A stretch of DNA of 64,000 nucleotides. It comes from Micromonospora sp. PLK6-60. Its GTDB lineage: Bacteria > Actinomycetota > Actinomycetes > Mycobacteriales > Micromonosporaceae. Positions within the stretch are counted from its first letter, which is position 1. Each line of letters begins with the position of its first letter. Shown piece by piece: positions 8,997-63,629 of this stretch. The translations under genes and the position numbers were made by a program. The stretch covers positions 124,001 through 188,000 of the forward strand of contig NZ_JAIOAA010000011.1 in the NCBI RefSeq assembly GCF_019890675.1, read 5' to 3'. The notes beneath the pieces are model-generated. The model was not told the DNA's origin. It searched no databases and worked only from the letters and a program-made list of their open reading frames with translations.

Positions 8997-9004
8997 CCGC
9001 AGCG

Positions 9005-9076
9005 AGCTCAGGCGCCGCGGGTGAACAGCTCAGGCGCCGCGGGCGAACAGCGCGGGGTCAGGCGTCGCGGGCGAAC
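9005..9076. repeat. Tandem copies of the response-regulator 3' end
   Basis: Two 22-base units at 9005-9026 and 9027-9048 differ by one base. Both match the true 3' end of the response-regulator gene at 9058-9076 (TCAGGCGTCGCGGGCGAAC on the plus strand). Read on the minus strand, each copy again encodes LF(A/T)RGA followed by a stop. This looks like slippage or unequal exchange at the gene end. Confidence 0.7.
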
Positions 9077-9684
9077 AGCGCCAGGCGTACCCGGTTGGGG
9101 CTGCCGGTCTTGGCCATCAGGCTGGTGATGTGGGTCTTGACGGTGGTCACCCCGATGTGGAGCCGATCCGCGATCTCGGTGTTGGACAGTCCCTCGGCCA
9201 CCAGGTCCAGCACGTCCTGCTCCCGCGCGGTCAGCCCCTCGACCGGCCGGGGCGCCTCCGGGCGGGCGTGCACCGCGCGCTGCACCAGCCGGCGCAGCAC
9301 GTCCTGGCTGAACGGGCTGTCGCCCACCGCGGCCCGGCGGATGCCGTCGAGCAGGTCGGTGGGGGGCGCGTCCTTGAGCAGGAAGCCGCAGGCGCCGGCG
9401 GTCAGCGCCGGATAGAGGTGGTCGTCGTCGCCGAAGGTGGTCAGCACCAGCACCCGGGTGGCGGGCCGGTCGGCGAGGATGCGGGTGGTCGCGGTGATCC
9501 CGTCGACGCCGGGCATGCGCAGGTCCATCACGACGACGTCGGGGACCAGCCGCGTCGCGAGGGTGATCGCCTCGCGGCCGTTGTCGGCCTCGCCGACGAC
9601 CTCGATGTCGGGCTGGGCGTCGCAGAGCATGCGCAGGCCGGCGCGGATGAGGTGCTGGTCGTCGACCAGCAGGACCCGGATCAT
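9058..9684 (-). CDS. NarL/LuxR-type response regulator
   Basis: A 208-residue response regulator. The receiver domain (1-120) has acidic DD at 8-9, phospho-acceptor Asp54 (VVMDLRMP), Thr at about 82 (LTTFGDDDH) and Lys at about 104. The C-terminal LuxR helix-turn-helix (about 145-205) has LTAREQDVLDLVAEGLSNTEIA and VTTVKTHITSLM. It is the output partner of the histidine kinase just upstream; the two genes overlap by 4 bases (ATGA). It is the last gene of a four-gene overlapping operon. Two degenerate copies of its 3' end follow the stop codon. Confidence 0.93.
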   Translation of the reverse strand: MIRVLLVDDQHLIRAGLRMLCDAQPDIEVVGEADNGREAITLATRLVPDVVVMDLRMPGVDGITATTRILADRPATRVLVLTTFGDDDHLYPALTAGACGFLLKDAPPTDLLDGIRRAAVGDSPFSQDVLRRLVQRAVHARPEAPRPVEGLTAREQDVLDLVAEGLSNTEIADRLHIGVTTVKTHITSLMAKTGSPNRVRLALFARDA

Positions 9685-10970
9685 GCCGGCTCCGGCGCGT
9701 ACGGTCCGGCCGGCGGCCCGCCACCGCGCGGCGGTCCGGACGGGGTGCCCCGCGGCGGCCGGGGCGACGGCGGCGCGGCGGCGACCACCGGCCCGGTCTC
9801 GGTGACCGGCAGGACGGTACGCACCCGCCAGCCCGCCCCGACCGGCCCCGCCTCCAGCGCGCCGCCGAGCACCTCGACGCGCTCCCGCATGCCGGTGATG
9901 CCGTGCCCGCCGCCGGCCGGCACCGTCGCTGGCCGCCGGCCCCGCCCGTCGTCGCTGACCTCCCAGTGCACGGCGCCGTCGACCACGGACACCAGCAGCC
10001 GGGCCCGGGCGGACGTGCCGGCGTGCTTGGCCACGTTGGTCAGCGCCTCCTGGGTGAGCCGCAGCACCGCCATGCCGCGTACCGCGTCGAGCGCGCCGAC
10101 CGCCGGGTCGATCTCCGCCTCCACGGTGACCCCGGCCTGGCGGGCCCGGTCGACCGCCGCGCCGAGCGCGGCCGGCAGCGCGGACGGCTCGATCGCGGTC
10201 AACGCCGCGTCCCCGCGTACGCCGTCGGGGTCGCGTAGCACCGCGACCAGCCGGCGCAGGTCCGCCAGGGCGTCGGTCCCGGTCCGGTGCACGTCGTCGA
10301 AGACCTCGCTCACCCGTGGGTCGAGGTCGGGTAGGACGTGCCGGGCCACGCCGACGCGCAGCACCATGGACGCCACGTGGTGCGCGAGCACGTCGTGCAG
10401 TTCACGGGCGATGGCGCTGCGTTCGTCGGCGCGGGCGGCCCGGCTCTCCGACTCGCGCCGACGCTGCTCGGCCGCCGCCCGCTCCTGCGCCTGCCGGGTC
10501 AGCTCGCCGGTGGTGCGGATGACCAGGCCGAGCAGCAGCGGCACGCCCACCTCGACGAGCAGCCCGAACACCCCGGACAGCGCCCGGCGCAGCGGGTCGC
10601 CGATCGAGTCGGTCAGGTCCACCACGGCCAGCAGGCCGGCGGCCAGCCACACGGTGCGCAGCCGGCCCGCCCGCATGGTCAGCTCCAGCAACGCCCAGCT
10701 GGCGCCGACCTGGTTGATGGTGACGTCGTCGAGGGTGTGCAGCGCCACCGCCAGCAGCGCGGTCTGCACGACCAGGTTGACCCGTGCCCGGCGGTGCAGC
10801 GCCATCCCGGCCGCGAACGCGGGCACCGCCAGCAGCCACTGGGCCGTGGTCGGCGACCGGTCCGCCTGGCCCCCGACGAGCAGGTAGCAGAGCCCGCTGA
10901 GGTTCAGCAGCAGCATCCGGACGAACGTGTCCCGCGCGTCGAACAGTCGCGCCACCCAGCCCACCCGCAT
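9681..10970 (-). CDS. NarL-type sensor histidine kinase
   Basis: A 429-residue membrane kinase. Five or six hydrophobic helices fill residues 18-155 without a clear large extracytoplasmic sensor. A coiled region follows, then the HisKA_3 dimerisation domain with His192 in ARELHDVLAHHVASM. The HATPase domain has the N box (TQEALTNVAKHAG) and G box (VSDDGRG, GGGHGITGMRERV). The C-terminal ~45 residues are Pro/Gly-rich. The start was placed at the ATG at 10970 because it overlaps the upstream stop as TGATG. It should phosphorylate the downstream regulator. The intramembrane sensor layout suggests detection of an envelope or lipid-soluble cue, possibly via the two upstream membrane proteins. Confidence 0.92.
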   Translation of the reverse strand: MRVGWVARLFDARDTFVRMLLLNLSGLCYLLVGGQADRSPTTAQWLLAVPAFAAGMALHRRARVNLVVQTALLAVALHTLDDVTINQVGASWALLELTMRAGRLRTVWLAAGLLAVVDLTDSIGDPLRRALSGVFGLLVEVGVPLLLGLVIRTTGELTRQAQERAAAEQRRRESESRAARADERSAIARELHDVLAHHVASMVLRVGVARHVLPDLDPRVSEVFDDVHRTGTDALADLRRLVAVLRDPDGVRGDAALTAIEPSALPAALGAAVDRARQAGVTVEAEIDPAVGALDAVRGMAVLRLTQEALTNVAKHAGTSARARLLVSVVDGAVHWEVSDDGRGRRPATVPAGGGHGITGMRERVEVLGGALEAGPVGAGWRVRTVLPVTETGPVVAAAPPSPRPPRGTPSGPPRGGGPPAGPYAPEPA

Positions 10971-11425
10971 CAGGGTAGGCGCTGCGGCCCGGCCGCAGTA
11001 GGTACCGGCTGGCGGACCCACCGGGTGCGCAGCGCCAGGTAGCCGCCCAGACCGACCGGGCCGAGCAGGATCGTCAGCAGCAGCACCGGCGCCATCACCA
11101 GCGCCGGCACCCCCCGTTGGCGGCTGTCGAGCCATGCCCATCGGCCGGCGAACAGGTCGAACCCGACCAGGTGCGCCCAGGCCGCCGCCGCGCCGTCCGG
11201 GGTGCCGAGCAGGTCGCGCACCCCGTCCAGCGTCGGCGACGTCACCGCCGGCAGCACCGTGCCCAGCGCCGGCAGCACCAGTGCCGCGTAGATCACCAGG
11301 ACCGGCGCCACGATCAGCGGGGAGCCGATGATCCGGGCGGTCACCGGGCGGTTCGGCAGCAGGATCATCAGCGCCCAGAAGGGCGCGGCCACCGCGAACG
11401 TCAGCGTGAACAGAGCGCCGGTCAT
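10970..11425 (-). CDS. ABA4-like membrane protein
   Basis: A 151-residue protein with four predicted transmembrane helices. It has the ABA4-like (DUF4281) signature: an N-terminal FAVAAPFWALMILLP segment and a central WAHLVGFDLFAGRW followed by D-S-R. In plants ABA4 is needed for neoxanthin formation; the bacterial members have no established role. It overlaps the upstream membrane-protein gene by 4 bases and the downstream histidine kinase by 1 base (TGATG), so production is coupled to a two-component system. A role as an accessory sensor or carotenoid-linked enzyme is inference. Confidence 0.75.
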   Translation of the reverse strand: MTGALFTLTFAVAAPFWALMILLPNRPVTARIIGSPLIVAPVLVIYAALVLPALGTVLPAVTSPTLDGVRDLLGTPDGAAAAWAHLVGFDLFAGRWAWLDSRQRGVPALVMAPVLLLTILLGPVGLGGYLALRTRWVRQPVPTAAGPQRLP

Positions 11426-12354
11426 CCGGCCAGCGCCAGTCGCGGGGCGGGCCGGCGCAGGACGACGACCGCGGTGGCGGTGGCGGTCGCCGTCAGCAGC
11501 GCGGTGGCGGCGGCGACGGTGAGCGCGTCGGGGCGCAGCAGCGGCTGCCCGCGCAGCGCCTGCCAGGTGAGCAGGATGGTGAGCAGGCCGTACGCGGCGC
11601 CCGCGACGGTCAGCAGCCGTGTCCGGGTGCGCTCGTCGAGCCGGTGGGCGGCGAACCGGTGCAGCAGCATTGCCAGGATCGGCAGCGCCTGCAGGGCGTG
11701 CAGCCCGACGAAGTGCCCGATGCGCAGGTCACCGCCGGTGGTGCTCCACCCGAGCAGCGGCAGGCCGGGCCCGCCGTCCGCGACGCCCACGCTGTGCGCC
11801 CCGGCGACCCCCTCCACCGCCGGCGCCGGGTCGCCCGCCACCATCGGGAAGGCGACAAGCATGCCGAGCAGCGACAGCCCGAGCCCCCAGCCGACGGCAC
11901 GCGCGGCGGCCCGGTCGGGGATCCGCCGGCGCAGCACCACGACCGCGATCACCACGTGCGCGACGAACAACGCCATGATCAGCATGCCCATCATCTGCCA
12001 CAGCGCAGCGTTGAACGGGGTGCTCTCGTTGAAGTGGCTGGCGGTGCCGCGCAGCACCTGCCCCACGATGATCGCCATCTCGCCGACGCCCACCGCCACG
12101 ATGGCGGTGCCCGCCCACTCGGCCACCCGGCTGCGCCGCGGCAGCAGGGACAGCATCCAGGCGAGGGTGGCGGCGTACACCACGAACGACACGGCGAACT
12201 TGAACGGCTTGACCCAGATCGGCGCGCCGGTGAGCACGCGCGGGTCGGCGACGATGCCGACCGCGGCGACGACGGCCAGGACCGCCATCGCCGACACGAA
12301 GACCATCAGGGGGCGGTGCCAGTGGGCCGCCCGGCCCAGTGCGGTGGTTGTCAT
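11422..12354 (-). CDS. Multi-pass membrane protein, first gene of ABA4/two-component operon
   Basis: A 310-residue protein with about seven to eight hydrophobic helices and short loops. Recognisable stretches include WVKPFKFAVSFVVYAATLAWML near residue 50, HFNESTPFNAALWQMMG near 107, and GLHALQALPILAMLLHR near 218. Several conserved-looking His residues lie in the membrane portion (HFVGLHALQ). No family is recognised with confidence. It heads a four-gene operon with 4-, 1- and 4-base overlaps running into an ABA4-like protein, a histidine kinase and a response regulator. That arrangement suggests a membrane module sensed or controlled by the two-component pair. Confidence 0.65.
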   Translation of the reverse strand: MTTTALGRAAHWHRPLMVFVSAMAVLAVVAAVGIVADPRVLTGAPIWVKPFKFAVSFVVYAATLAWMLSLLPRRSRVAEWAGTAIVAVGVGEMAIIVGQVLRGTASHFNESTPFNAALWQMMGMLIMALFVAHVVIAVVVLRRRIPDRAAARAVGWGLGLSLLGMLVAFPMVAGDPAPAVEGVAGAHSVGVADGGPGLPLLGWSTTGGDLRIGHFVGLHALQALPILAMLLHRFAAHRLDERTRTRLLTVAGAAYGLLTILLTWQALRGQPLLRPDALTVAAATALLTATATATAVVVLRRPAPRLALAG

Positions 12355-12468
12355 GCCATCGATGCTGGTGCGCCGGCTGATCGACTTCGTCGGACCGGAA
12401 GCCCCGGTTGCGGCCGCCGGTCGGAGCGCGTCTCCACCCCTGGTAGGAGACGGCGGCGCCGGGCCGCT

Positions 12469-13182
12469 CTAGACCGTGCCCGACAGGTACGCCCGCCGCC
12501 GTTCCGGCTCGAACTTCTCGATCGCGTACCGCAGCATGACCCGCGGCATGGCCCGATGGTGCCGGCCCAGGAACGCCTCCGCCGCGGCCCGGTCCCGGTT
12601 GCCCACCTCGCGCAGCATCCAGCCCACCGCCTTGTGCACCAGGTCGTGCGGGTCGCGCAGCAGCCGCTCGGCGAGCCGGAAGGTCCAGTCGAAGTCGCCG
12701 GCCCGGACGAACGCGAAGGTCGCCATGACCGCGATCCGCCGCTCCCACACCAGCCGCGACCCGGCCAACCGGTCCAGCACGCTCCGGTCCTTGTCGAGCA
12801 ACCACGGGCCCACGATGTACGGCGCGGACGAGTCCACCAGGTCCCAGTTGTCGATCCGGTCGGTGTTGGCCAGCACGAGGTCGAAGATCTCGTCCCGTTC
12901 CGGCTCGCTGCCCCTGGCGAACTTGCGCACCAGGACGAGGAGCGCGGTGAGCCGCTCCTCGTGCACGTCGCTGCGCAGCAGCGCCGCCGTGTCGGTCAGC
13001 GAAAGGTCACGCCAGTACCGGCCGGCCACCCGGCGCTGGTCCGGCACGGTGACGCCGATGGCCCGGTCGCCCTCGCCGTAGCCGCCCGGCTGCATCTGCA
13101 GGAACCGGCTGACCTGCTCCGCCCGCCGCGGATCGGCGAGGCGGGCGAGGTCCCGGCGGACGTCGGCGGCGGTGGTGGCCAT
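12469..13182 (-). CDS. DNA alkylation repair protein, AlkD-like
   Basis: A 237-residue, all-helical HEAT-repeat-like protein of the AlkD DNA glycosylase family, which removes N3- and N7-alkylated purines without flipping the base. Family markers include GVTVPDQRRVAGRYW near 43, the NWDLVDSSAPYIVGPWL segment near 113-129, with the Trp and Asp that line the lesion site, and DLVHKAVGWMLREVGNRD near 178-195. Length is normal. It lies downstream of a MmyB-type regulator and an SDR on the same strand, but nothing suggests a shared pathway. Confidence 0.88.
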   Translation of the reverse strand: MATTAADVRRDLARLADPRRAEQVSRFLQMQPGGYGEGDRAIGVTVPDQRRVAGRYWRDLSLTDTAALLRSDVHEERLTALLVLVRKFARGSEPERDEIFDLVLANTDRIDNWDLVDSSAPYIVGPWLLDKDRSVLDRLAGSRLVWERRIAVMATFAFVRAGDFDWTFRLAERLLRDPHDLVHKAVGWMLREVGNRDRAAAEAFLGRHHRAMPRVMLRYAIEKFEPERRRAYLSGTV

Positions 13183-13209
13183 GACTGTGCAAGCTACCGC
13201 CGCCGCCCG

Positions 13210-14055
13210 TCACGGGACCGGCGACCCGTCGTACGCGCCGATGACCGACAGCAGCCGCAGCTTGTCGTAGCTGTCCGTGCCCGGGGTGGCCGTGTAGACC
13301 ACCAGTTGCTGCGACTGGTCGGGATCGATCAACCGCTGGCACTGCAACTCGAGCAGGCCGACCTGGGGATGTGCGATCCGCTGCGGTCCGCAGTACGGGC
13401 CGGCGACGGGATGCCGCCGCCACAGCGCGGTGAACTCGGGGCTCGCCGCGAGCAGCGCGTCGACGATCGCCGCCGCCCGCGAGCCCTTGCCGTCGCGGAC
13501 GAACGAGGCGTGCAGGTCGGCCACGACGGTGAGGCTCTGCGCCGCCCGCTCCGGCTCGGGGTGGATCAGCCGGGTGTCGGGATCGGTGAACCAGCGGTAG
13601 TGCAGGCTGCGTGCCAGGCCGGTGTGTCGCCGCTGGTCGCCCAGCAGGGCCACGGCGAGGGGCGTCTGGAGCATCGTCTCGCCGAGGTGGGAGACGACCT
13701 GCGCGGCCGCGTCGTGCAGGCCGTCGAAGATGCGCAGCATTCCCGGGTTGATGTGTTCGGCCTCCGCCGACCGGGGCGGTGTCGCGTAGCCCGCCAAGCG
13801 GAACAGGTGGTCGCGTTCCTCCAGCGACAGGCGTAGCGCGCGGGCGAGCGCCGCCAGCATCTGCTCGGAGGGGTACGGACCGCGCGGCTGTTCGAGGCGG
13901 GTGTAGTAGTCGACGGACATGTCGCCGAGCACCGCGACCTCCTCCCGGCGCAGCCCCGTGGTGCGGCGGCGCCGCCCGCGGGGCAACCCCACGTCCTCGG
14001 GCTGCAACGCCTCCCGCCGGGTACGCAGGTATTCGGCCAGTCGGGCGCGGTCCAC
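13210..14055 (-). CDS. XRE regulator with MmyB-like ligand-binding domain
   Basis: A 281-residue regulator from the GTG at 14055, chosen because GAGGAGG lies 7 bases upstream; an upstream ATG lacks such a site. An N-terminal XRE helix-turn-helix (about 5-75) contains TTGLRREEVAVLGDMSVDYYTRLEQ. The C-terminal MmyB-like PAS-type domain follows, with LHYRWFTDPDTRLIHPEPE and the ATPGTDSYDKLRLLSVIG ending. In the MmyB group this domain binds fatty-acid-like ligands. Proteins of this layout usually sit next to an SDR oxidoreductase and repress it; here the SDR gene is 36 bases upstream on the same strand, so the two may be co-transcribed. Confidence 0.88.
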   Translation of the reverse strand: MDRARLAEYLRTRREALQPEDVGLPRGRRRRTTGLRREEVAVLGDMSVDYYTRLEQPRGPYPSEQMLAALARALRLSLEERDHLFRLAGYATPPRSAEAEHINPGMLRIFDGLHDAAAQVVSHLGETMLQTPLAVALLGDQRRHTGLARSLHYRWFTDPDTRLIHPEPERAAQSLTVVADLHASFVRDGKGSRAAAIVDALLAASPEFTALWRRHPVAGPYCGPQRIAHPQVGLLELQCQRLIDPDQSQQLVVYTATPGTDSYDKLRLLSVIGAYDGSPVP

Positions 14056-61872: not shown

Positions 61873-63027
61873 ATGACGGTCGACGGGGTGTGGACGGGAG
61901 CCGACCGGCGGCTGCGCCGCGCCCGGCAGGTCACCCTCGTCTTCCTGGTCACCAGCGTCTGGGCCAGCCTGCTGCTGCCCGGTGCCGGGCTGACCCGCGA
62001 ACCGGACCCGACGCGGGTCACGCTGGGCGCGGTGGCCGTGCTCGGCTTCACCGTGGCCCAGACCTCCGTGCTCTACGCGGCGGTCACCCCCGGGTTGTCC
62101 CACCGGTGGCGGCGCCGCTTCACGGTGGGGCTGGCCGTGACGGCGGTGCTCAGCGTCCCGCTGGCCGGGCCGGTCGCCGCCGGCACCTGGCCGACCTGGG
62201 CCTGGCTGGGCGCCTCGCTGGTCGGCATGGCGCCACTGGTGCTGGCCACCCCCGGCGCGCTGGTCGCCTCGGCGGCCGTGGTCGCGGTCTCCGCCGGGGT
62301 GGCCCGGTGGACCGGGGGCTCGCTCACCGACCACCTGATCATTACGGGGCTGGTCGGGGCGGGGGTCGCCACGGTCAACCGGGCGCAGGTCTGGTTCTGG
62401 GACCTGCTGGTCGAGGCCCGGCAGGGCGAGCAGGCGCGGGCCCGGCTGGCCGCCGCCGAGGAACGGCTCCGGTTCGCCCGCGACGTGCACGACCTGCTCG
62501 GGCATGATCTGACCGTGATCGCGCTCAAGGCGGAGCTGGCCGCCCGGCTCGCGCCGGTCGACGCCGCCCGGGCCGGCCGGGAGGCCGACGAGGTACGCCG
62601 GCTCGCCGGCACCGCGCTGCACCGGGTCCGCGAGGCGGTGCACGACTACCGGGCGGTCGACCTGACCGAACAGCTCACCGCGGTGGGGGAGGTGCTGCGC
62701 TCCTGCGGGGTGCGCTGCACGGTGCGGTCGCCGGACGGCGAGCTGCCCGCCCGGGCCGCCGCCGACCTGGCCGCGGTGCTGCGCGAGGCCGGGACCAACG
62801 TGCTGCGGCACAGCCGGGCCGGGTGGTGTCGGATCGACGTCGAGCGGGAGGACGACATGATCACCATGACGGTACGCAACGACGGGGCGGCGGCCGGCGC
62901 ACCGGATGAGCACAGCCACGGGCTGCGCGGGCTGGCCGAACGGCTCGCCGCGGGCGGCGGCGGCCTGGCCGCCGGGCGGGACGGCGACGAGTTCGTCCTG
63001 CGGGCGCGGGTGCCGGTGACCCCGTGA
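61873..63027 (+). CDS. NarL-type sensor histidine kinase
   Basis: A 384-residue kinase with about six membrane helices in the first 165 residues and no sensor domain, like DesK-type thermosensors or envelope sensors. The HisKA_3 domain has His206 (FARDVHDLLGHDLTVIALK). The HATPase domain has the N box (LREAGTNVLRHSRAG) and G boxes (HGLRGLAERLAAGGG). The start is the ATG at 61873. The response regulator gene overlaps it by 4 bases (GTGA). Confidence 0.9.
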   Translation: MTVDGVWTGADRRLRRARQVTLVFLVTSVWASLLLPGAGLTREPDPTRVTLGAVAVLGFTVAQTSVLYAAVTPGLSHRWRRRFTVGLAVTAVLSVPLAGPVAAGTWPTWAWLGASLVGMAPLVLATPGALVASAAVVAVSAGVARWTGGSLTDHLIITGLVGAGVATVNRAQVWFWDLLVEARQGEQARARLAAAEERLRFARDVHDLLGHDLTVIALKAELAARLAPVDAARAGREADEVRRLAGTALHRVREAVHDYRAVDLTEQLTAVGEVLRSCGVRCTVRSPDGELPARAAADLAAVLREAGTNVLRHSRAGWCRIDVEREDDMITMTVRNDGAAAGAPDEHSHGLRGLAERLAAGGGGLAAGRDGDEFVLRARVPVTP

Positions 63028-63629
63028 TCCGGGTGCTGCTCGCCGACGACGAGGAACTGATCCGTACCGCCCTCGCGGCCCTGCTCGGTCTCGAGCCGGA
63101 CCTGACGGTGGTGGCCCAGGCGGCGACCGGGCGGGAGGCGGTGGACGCGGCGCTGGCCCACCGCCCGGACGTCGCGGTCGTCGACCTGGAGATGCCGCCG
63201 CCCGGCGGGATCGCACTCGCCGCCGAGCTGGCCCGGGCCCTGCCGGACTGCGCGGTGGTGATCCTCACCGGCCACGGCCGCCCCGGTCACCTGCGCCGGG
63301 CGCTCACCGCCGGGGCCCGCGGCTTCCTGCGCAAGGGCGCACCCGGTGGGGCCCTCGCCGACGTGATCCGCCGGGTGCACGGCGGCGGCCGCTACGTCGA
63401 CCCGGCGCTCGCCGCCGACGCGCTCACCCTGCCCGAGTGCCCACTGACCCCACGGGAGCTGGAGACGCTGCGGCTGGCCGAGTACGGCACGCCGGTCGCG
63501 GTGATCGCCCGGCGCACCCGGTTGTCGGCCGGGACCGTCCGCAACTACCTGACCGCCAGCGTCCAGAAGCTCGGCGCGACCGACCGGGCCGAGGCGGTCC
63601 GCATCGCCCGCGACGCCGGCTGGTTCTGA
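63024..63629 (+). CDS. NarL/DesR-type response regulator
   Basis: A 201-residue regulator with acidic DDEE at 8-11, Asp54 (VVDLEMPPP), Thr at about 82 (LTGHGRPGHLRRAL) and Lys at about 104 (FLRKGAPG), then a LuxR helix-turn-helix (about 136-198) with LTPRELETLRLAEYGTPVAVIARRTRLSAGTVRNYLTASVQKL. The recognition region is close to DesR-type regulators. Coupled by a 4-base overlap to its kinase. Confidence 0.92.
   Translation: MIRVLLADDEELIRTALAALLGLEPDLTVVAQAATGREAVDAALAHRPDVAVVDLEMPPPGGIALAAELARALPDCAVVILTGHGRPGHLRRALTAGARGFLRKGAPGGALADVIRRVHGGGRYVDPALAADALTLPECPLTPRELETLRLAEYGTPVAVIARRTRLSAGTVRNYLTASVQKLGATDRAEAVRIARDAGWF

Follow-up and report, generated by a model that had tools for sequence, protein, structure and literature searches.

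A 64,000-nucleotide stretch of the genome of Micromonospora sp. PLK6-60 (contig NZ_JAIOAA010000011.1, positions 124,001 to 188,000 of the forward strand), hereafter called the window, contains four overlapping genes that encode a multi-pass membrane protein of an unnamed family (P0001), an ABA4-like protein (P0002), a histidine kinase (P0003) and a response regulator (P0004). Judged by gene order in relatives, the steady partner of ABA4 is P0001, and P0001, usually together with ABA4, is the constant unit of these loci, rather than the kinase. We lean towards the view that the four genes form a self-regulated membrane-enzyme module, in which a P0001/ABA4 complex would likely convert a lipophilic substrate by redox or oxygen chemistry, and the kinase and the regulator would switch their own operon. 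This view builds on the anatomy of the operon, a lasting P0001-ABA4 partnership that includes a natural fusion, the exchange of the adjacent regulators, and an operator-like dyad that tracks the kinase type. The features concerned are the following:

12354-11422, minus strand: P0001, 310 amino acids, multi-pass membrane protein with eight helices, unnamed family, with invariant K49, H107, H214 and H219
11425-10970, minus strand: P0002, 151 amino acids, ABA4-like protein (PF14108), all-helical model
10970-9681, minus strand: P0003, 429 amino acids, HisKA_3-type histidine kinase with a hydrophobic N-terminal region and no recognised sensor domain
9684-9058, minus strand: P0004, 208 amino acids, NarL-type response regulator (Response_reg and GerE domains)
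12432-12449, no strand assigned ("."): proposed response-regulator operator, CTCCTACC-N2-GGTAGGAG (2 mismatches), 78-95 bases before the start codon of P0001

The four-gene unit spans 12354-9058 on the minus strand, with successive overlaps of 4 (ATGA), 1 (TGATG) and 4 bases. A first-pass annotation, made from the letters alone, had described these overlaps and a multi-pass first product, and the open reading frame coordinates bear it out; the interval it gave (9681-12354) covers three of the genes and does not include the bulk of the response-regulator gene, whose end lies at 9058. Among relatives, whose gene calls and labels come from a simple gene caller of our own and from BLAST labels rather than from curated annotation, the overlap is exactly 4 bases at 73 of 87 junctions between P0001 and ABA4, and likewise 4 bases at 52 of 54 junctions between the kinase and regulator genes. 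Because identical overlaps recur in relatives, the overlaps in the operon are more than chance.

The assignment of the second gene product to the ABA4 family also held: in a Pfam profile search, PF14108 matched P0002 with 141.1 bits against a cut-off of 27, covering profile positions 2-125 of 127. The kinase P0003, which adjoins the Response_reg and GerE regulator P0004, contains HisKA_3 and HATPase_c as its only Pfam domains above cut-off, in line with the earlier description of a kinase that lacks a recognised sensor domain. That its N-terminus consists of membrane helices only is plausible, as the first approximately 155 residues form a hydrophobic region, in which a simple hydropathy scan clearly resolves just two segments, residues 15-34 and 129-155. 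An Rfam scan of 9000-13300 gave no match, nor did a scan for sigma-70 promoters and terminators, and from an anti-phage library only P0004 was matched, weakly and through generic domains.

Within the window's family, 43 of 121 genomes contain PF14108; the corresponding counts are 7 of 8 for the genus and 12 of 396 across the phylum. The window's own genome (6.46 megabases) has a single ABA4-like gene. When 52 ABA4 loci were fetched (40 from the family, 10 from outside it and 2 with a weak ABA4 match), P0001 adjoined ABA4 in 35 of the 40, 3 of the 10 and 0 of the 2, respectively; a kinase and a regulator then followed in only 15 of the 52. The P0001 family is wider than ABA4 and occurs in 66 of the 121 family genomes and 30 of the 396 phylum genomes. 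Scanning named genomes with the P0001 alignment returned at least 590 relatives, the best 80 of which were examined; P0001 was not called as a gene in three of these (L107, L137, L162), which were left out of the counts. Among the remaining 77, P0001 is followed by a kinase and a regulator in 35 (24 with ABA4 in between and 11 without it), and a divergent MerR gene is found in 36, of which 29 also contain ABA4; 4 loci show neither arrangement and 2 are cut off. The two-component group consists mostly of Micromonospora and Actinoplanes, the MerR group mostly of Streptomyces, Lentzea, Saccharothrix, Actinomycetospora and Dactylosporangium. The gene-order comparison across actinobacteria that had been proposed as a check thus gave a divided answer, with the four-gene order kept in Micromonospora and Actinoplanes and not constant elsewhere.

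The partnership extends beyond the actinobacteria. On a plasmid of the haloarchaeon Halorientalis marina, a single protein of 429 amino acids combines the two: one part aligns with P0001 at 37% identity (237 positions), and another with ABA4 at 48% identity (130 residues; PF14108, 126.8 bits). In the alphaproteobacterium Microvirga ossetica the order is reversed, with ABA4 preceding P0001, a 4-base overlap and a divergent TetR gene alongside. Among plasmids, 37 records contained relatives of P0001, and the annotated entries listed are hypothetical proteins, the fusion excepted. A fusion and a swapped gene order are the usual signs of a physical or functional complex, and P0001 and ABA4 are therefore taken as one; on these genomic grounds the complex appears fairly well supported. 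A limited literature search found no publication on a partner of bacterial ABA4.

The regulators beside P0001 vary. After de-duplication of the P0001 rows, 147 distinct loci remained: 56 two-component (38 with ABA4), 56 MerR (41), 3 PadR (1), 29 with none (8) and 3 cut. In a FastTree phylogeny of P0001, which flags four long rows as unsure (L243, L241, L083 and L233), the two-component label requires 7 changes, at least 5 of them forced by the starred branches. Plasmid relatives are accompanied by HTH_10 regulators in Halorientalis and Halomicrobium, by TetR in Deinococcus and Microvirga, and by AraC in Polymorphobacter. In each of two genomes (G055 and G075), one P0001 copy is accompanied by MerR and ABA4 (L053, L060), and a further copy lies beside a kinase and a regulator in a locus that lacks ABA4 (L340, L341). 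This variety, with two types inside one genome, indicates that the kinase is one of several exchangeable regulators. The suggestion that ABA4 is locked into a two-component operon is contradicted both by P0001, with or without ABA4, lying beside MerR, PadR, TetR, AraC or HTH_10 genes with no kinase, and by kinase operons that have P0001 yet lack ABA4.

The regulator type is mirrored in the promoter. From the upstream regions of two-component loci, a dyad of the form CTCCTACC-N2-GGTAGGAG was read, and when up to 3 mismatches are allowed, 56 of 60 two-component promoters contain it, compared with 0 of 59 MerR-type promoters (best 5 mismatches); both sets include near copies, with 56 unique sequences in each. 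It also occurs in 3 of 36 other promoters, two of which belong to contigs cut after P0001, and letter shuffles average 6.4 mismatches. Seven freshly fetched P0001 loci followed the same pattern: the dyad was found in 4 of 4 two-component loci (2, 2, 2 and 3 mismatches; the regulator was uncalled in one), in 0 of 2 without a kinase and in 0 of 1 with a weak kinase match. A genome-wide search with up to 2 mismatches allowed placed it at the P0001 promoter of 15 out of 16 two-component genomes, and in the window's genome the sole match at this threshold is the site at 12432-12449.

MerR-type promoters carry another conserved element of their own. A pattern made from it matches the P0001 promoter of all 12 genomes given that have the pair but not the two-component system, and of 0 of 3 two-component genomes. 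Among the 12, G080 has retained this operator although no MerR gene lies directly upstream of P0001 (L076), which suggests that control is exerted from another part of the genome. In L074, L076 and L078, a glyoxalase-like gene takes the place of the divergent MerR gene, and a second match to the MerR-type operator, with 2 mismatches and away from the pair (G017:C44:32299-32321, L313), may mark a further target. From these patterns the regulatory architecture appears well supported, and the kinase and regulator most likely switch their own operon locally.

P0001 itself has no Pfam or NCBIfam match above cut-off; a weak Pfam match to DUF7937 fell below it and was not adopted. In the alignment, H107, H214 and H219 are present in 147 of 147 rows and K49 in all 145 rows with a letter at that position, while H187 is kept in 144 of 147. 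K49, H107, H214 and H219 are all retained in 10 of 10 sequences from Actinobacteria, Alphaproteobacteria, Deinococcus and haloarchaea; judging from loop charges, the conserved residues would lie at extracytoplasmic helix ends. An AlphaFold2 model built from 36 sequences has eight long helices, with a mean predicted local distance difference test score of 91.5 and a predicted template modelling score of 0.87. Its best Foldseek rows against the PDB are almost all heme-copper oxidase subunit I, with probabilities up to 0.99. VIA-align superimposed it on the same subunit with Z 16.1 (264 of 310 residues, root-mean-square deviation 3.9), with members of this superfamily in all 50 rows shown, although with this tool helical models that lack true relatives can reach Z of about 14. 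Sequence homology to heme-copper oxidases was tried and rejected, since PF00115 gave no match at E up to 1 and profile comparison by hhalign a probability of 0.4%. With neither sequence support nor six histidines, P0001 is best said to resemble the heme-copper oxidase fold and is not filed in that family.

For P0002, no solved relative was found by sequence, nor was any for the P0001 and ABA4 profiles. Its model had no meaningful Foldseek match, and likeness to the membrane domain of ligand-gated channels was discarded because the best VIA-align Z, about 8, lies within the chance range of the tool.

Taken together, the module may operate as follows. P0001 and the ABA4-like protein would assemble into a two-subunit membrane complex, in which P0001 would provide the conserved site of three invariant histidines and a lysine, presumably with a cofactor, and the complex would most likely act on a lipophilic substrate by redox or oxygen chemistry. 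The kinase would sense, in or at the membrane, a condition that makes the complex necessary, and would phosphorylate the NarL-type regulator, which would then bind the dyad at 12432-12449 and turn the operon on in the manner of des-desK-desR. Redox chemistry is weakly suggested by the conserved site and the modelled fold; neighbouring genes add supporting context, among them an F420_oxidored gene that overlaps ABA4 in L167, genes for NAD(P)-binding proteins after P0001 in Polymorphobacter, and a Monooxy_af470-like gene in L145 and L238.

Several points weigh against this interpretation. The dyad consensus was derived from most of the loci in which it was later counted, so that only the seven fresh loci are independent. 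A reversed-pattern control gave 1-10 matches per genome at 2 mismatches, which makes chance sites about as common as real ones; consequently, the position of the dyad and not its rarity carries the argument, and its uniqueness in the window's genome is weak on its own. The dyad is missing from three two-component loci with divergent P0001 copies (L204, L205, L233). Of the 56 two-component and 56 MerR loci, 18 and 15, respectively, lack ABA4, which is thus not essential to the module. As for the fold, the best Foldseek E value of the P0001 model is 0.27, the profile comparison cited above gives a probability of 0.4%, and the model represents the polypeptide chain alone, without haem or metal.

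The first-pass annotation had left open whether the two membrane proteins are the sensor of the kinase or the output of the pair. As accessory sensors, P0001 and ABA4 would either detect a cue, which the first-pass annotation took to be lipid-soluble or light-related, or keep the kinase in check in the way that LiaF does with LiaS. This fits the tight overlaps, of the kind seen with co-transcription, with a kinase that lacks a sensor domain, and in kinase operons P0001 adjoins the kinase or lies one gene away, though these loci were found through P0001 or ABA4. Yet the pair is also found, its invariant residues unchanged, beside one-component regulators with no adjacent kinase, and the kinase-linked dyad sits in the operon's own promoter. 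The promoter position favours the pair as output, as far as sequences can tell, and we regard a purely sensory role as rather improbable; output and feedback sensing by P0001/ABA4 are nevertheless compatible. Still less probable is that the pair exports or flips a hydrophobic compound. Such a function would account for the MerR, TetR and PadR genes, as one-component regulators of these types often control export genes, and both models are all-helical. However, no transporter family was matched above the Pfam cut-off, no convincing transporter appears among the Foldseek and VIA-align matches listed, and an invariant site of charged and histidine residues is seen more typically where catalysis takes place or a cofactor is bound.

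In plants, neoxanthin formation requires ABA4, and we know of no account that settles its chemistry there. By analogy, the pair could modify a carotenoid, with the kinase reporting photo-oxidative stress. P0002 does belong to the ABA4 family, crtI is above cut-off in 102 of the 121 family genomes, and in several Streptomyces genes for an extracytoplasmic function (ECF) sigma factor and an RskA anti-sigma factor follow the pair, at times with a DNA photolyase gene as well. Nonetheless, crtI is equally common in ABA4-positive (37 of 43) and ABA4-negative genomes (65 of 78), so that co-occurrence reveals no carotenoid association and a link on this basis was ruled out. Moreover, two genomes (G017 and G019) contain the pair without crtI above cut-off, and no carotenoid genes were recognised beside the pair among the flanking genes, which were scanned in part. 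A carotenoid enzyme therefore seems unlikely to us. The same holds, in our judgement, for a bolder form of the membrane-enzyme reading, in which P0001 would found a family of compact membrane oxidoreductases of 7-8 helices that share the heme-copper oxidase subunit I fold but have a histidine site of reduced size, with ABA4 as the second subunit, separate in bacteria and fused in the haloarchaeon.

Among known systems, one that is close in layout is des-desK-desR of Bacillus subtilis, in which membrane enzyme gene(s) are controlled by a membrane-embedded kinase of the HisKA_3 type and a NarL-type regulator. The operon described here likewise has putative membrane enzyme gene(s) followed by a HisKA_3 kinase and a NarL-type regulator, but P0001 and P0002 are not recognised as fatty-acid desaturases and the proposed operator is the dyad given above. 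In the LiaF-LiaS-LiaR three-component system, a membrane protein is encoded together with a membrane-embedded kinase and a NarL-type regulator. A similar combination is found here, with a kinase that is plausibly membrane-embedded and with the difference that P0001/ABA4 also occur with no adjacent kinase. Heme-copper oxidase subunit I (PF00115, including nitric oxide reductases) has 12 helices and six conserved histidine ligands for two haems and CuB; the predicted P0001 fold superimposes on it, but has 8 long helices and three invariant histidines in place of the six ligands. P0002 shares with plant ABA4 its membership in the PF14108 profile and differs in that it is paired, and in one archaeon fused, with P0001.

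A few further observations concern these families. In four Actinomycetospora loci (L144, L145, L150, L169), a DUF2834 protein occupies the ABA4 slot with a 4-base overlap with P0001 (Pfam scan on one of them); a limited literature search found no function for DUF2834. In L082 (G498), P0001 and ABA4 have further small proteins around them: a DoxX_2 family member, an Anthrone_oxy protein (PF08592) and another that no Pfam family matched. In the Streptomyces loci L146, L155 and L161, the pair and the genes for the ECF sigma factor, RskA and DNA photolyase run in the same direction, a possible light or photo-oxidative context; these labels rest on Pfam scans of relatives elsewhere, that of the sigma factor on L142. 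The window's genome has a second, divergent P0001 relative (G000:C48:79513-80214, L224; 96 bits) with no kinase, MerR or ABA4 gene labelled beside it. Elsewhere in the window, a gene pair at 61873-63629 encodes proteins of 384 and 201 amino acids with a 4-base overlap, and the start of the latter looks by eye like a response-regulator receiver domain.

These loci present one membrane module that has repeatedly been placed under different regulator classes, with operators that change with the regulator, and the two predicted operators, the two-component dyad and the MerR element, are now open to direct testing. With P0001, the bacterial ABA4 family gains a probable physical partner, as indicated by the fusion protein, and a candidate active-site subunit. 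If P0001 indeed founded a compact oxidoreductase family, plant ABA4 would derive from, or still act as, a subunit of a membrane redox enzyme, and if P0001/ABA4 is a redox complex, it would offer a tractable bacterial system for ABA4 chemistry.

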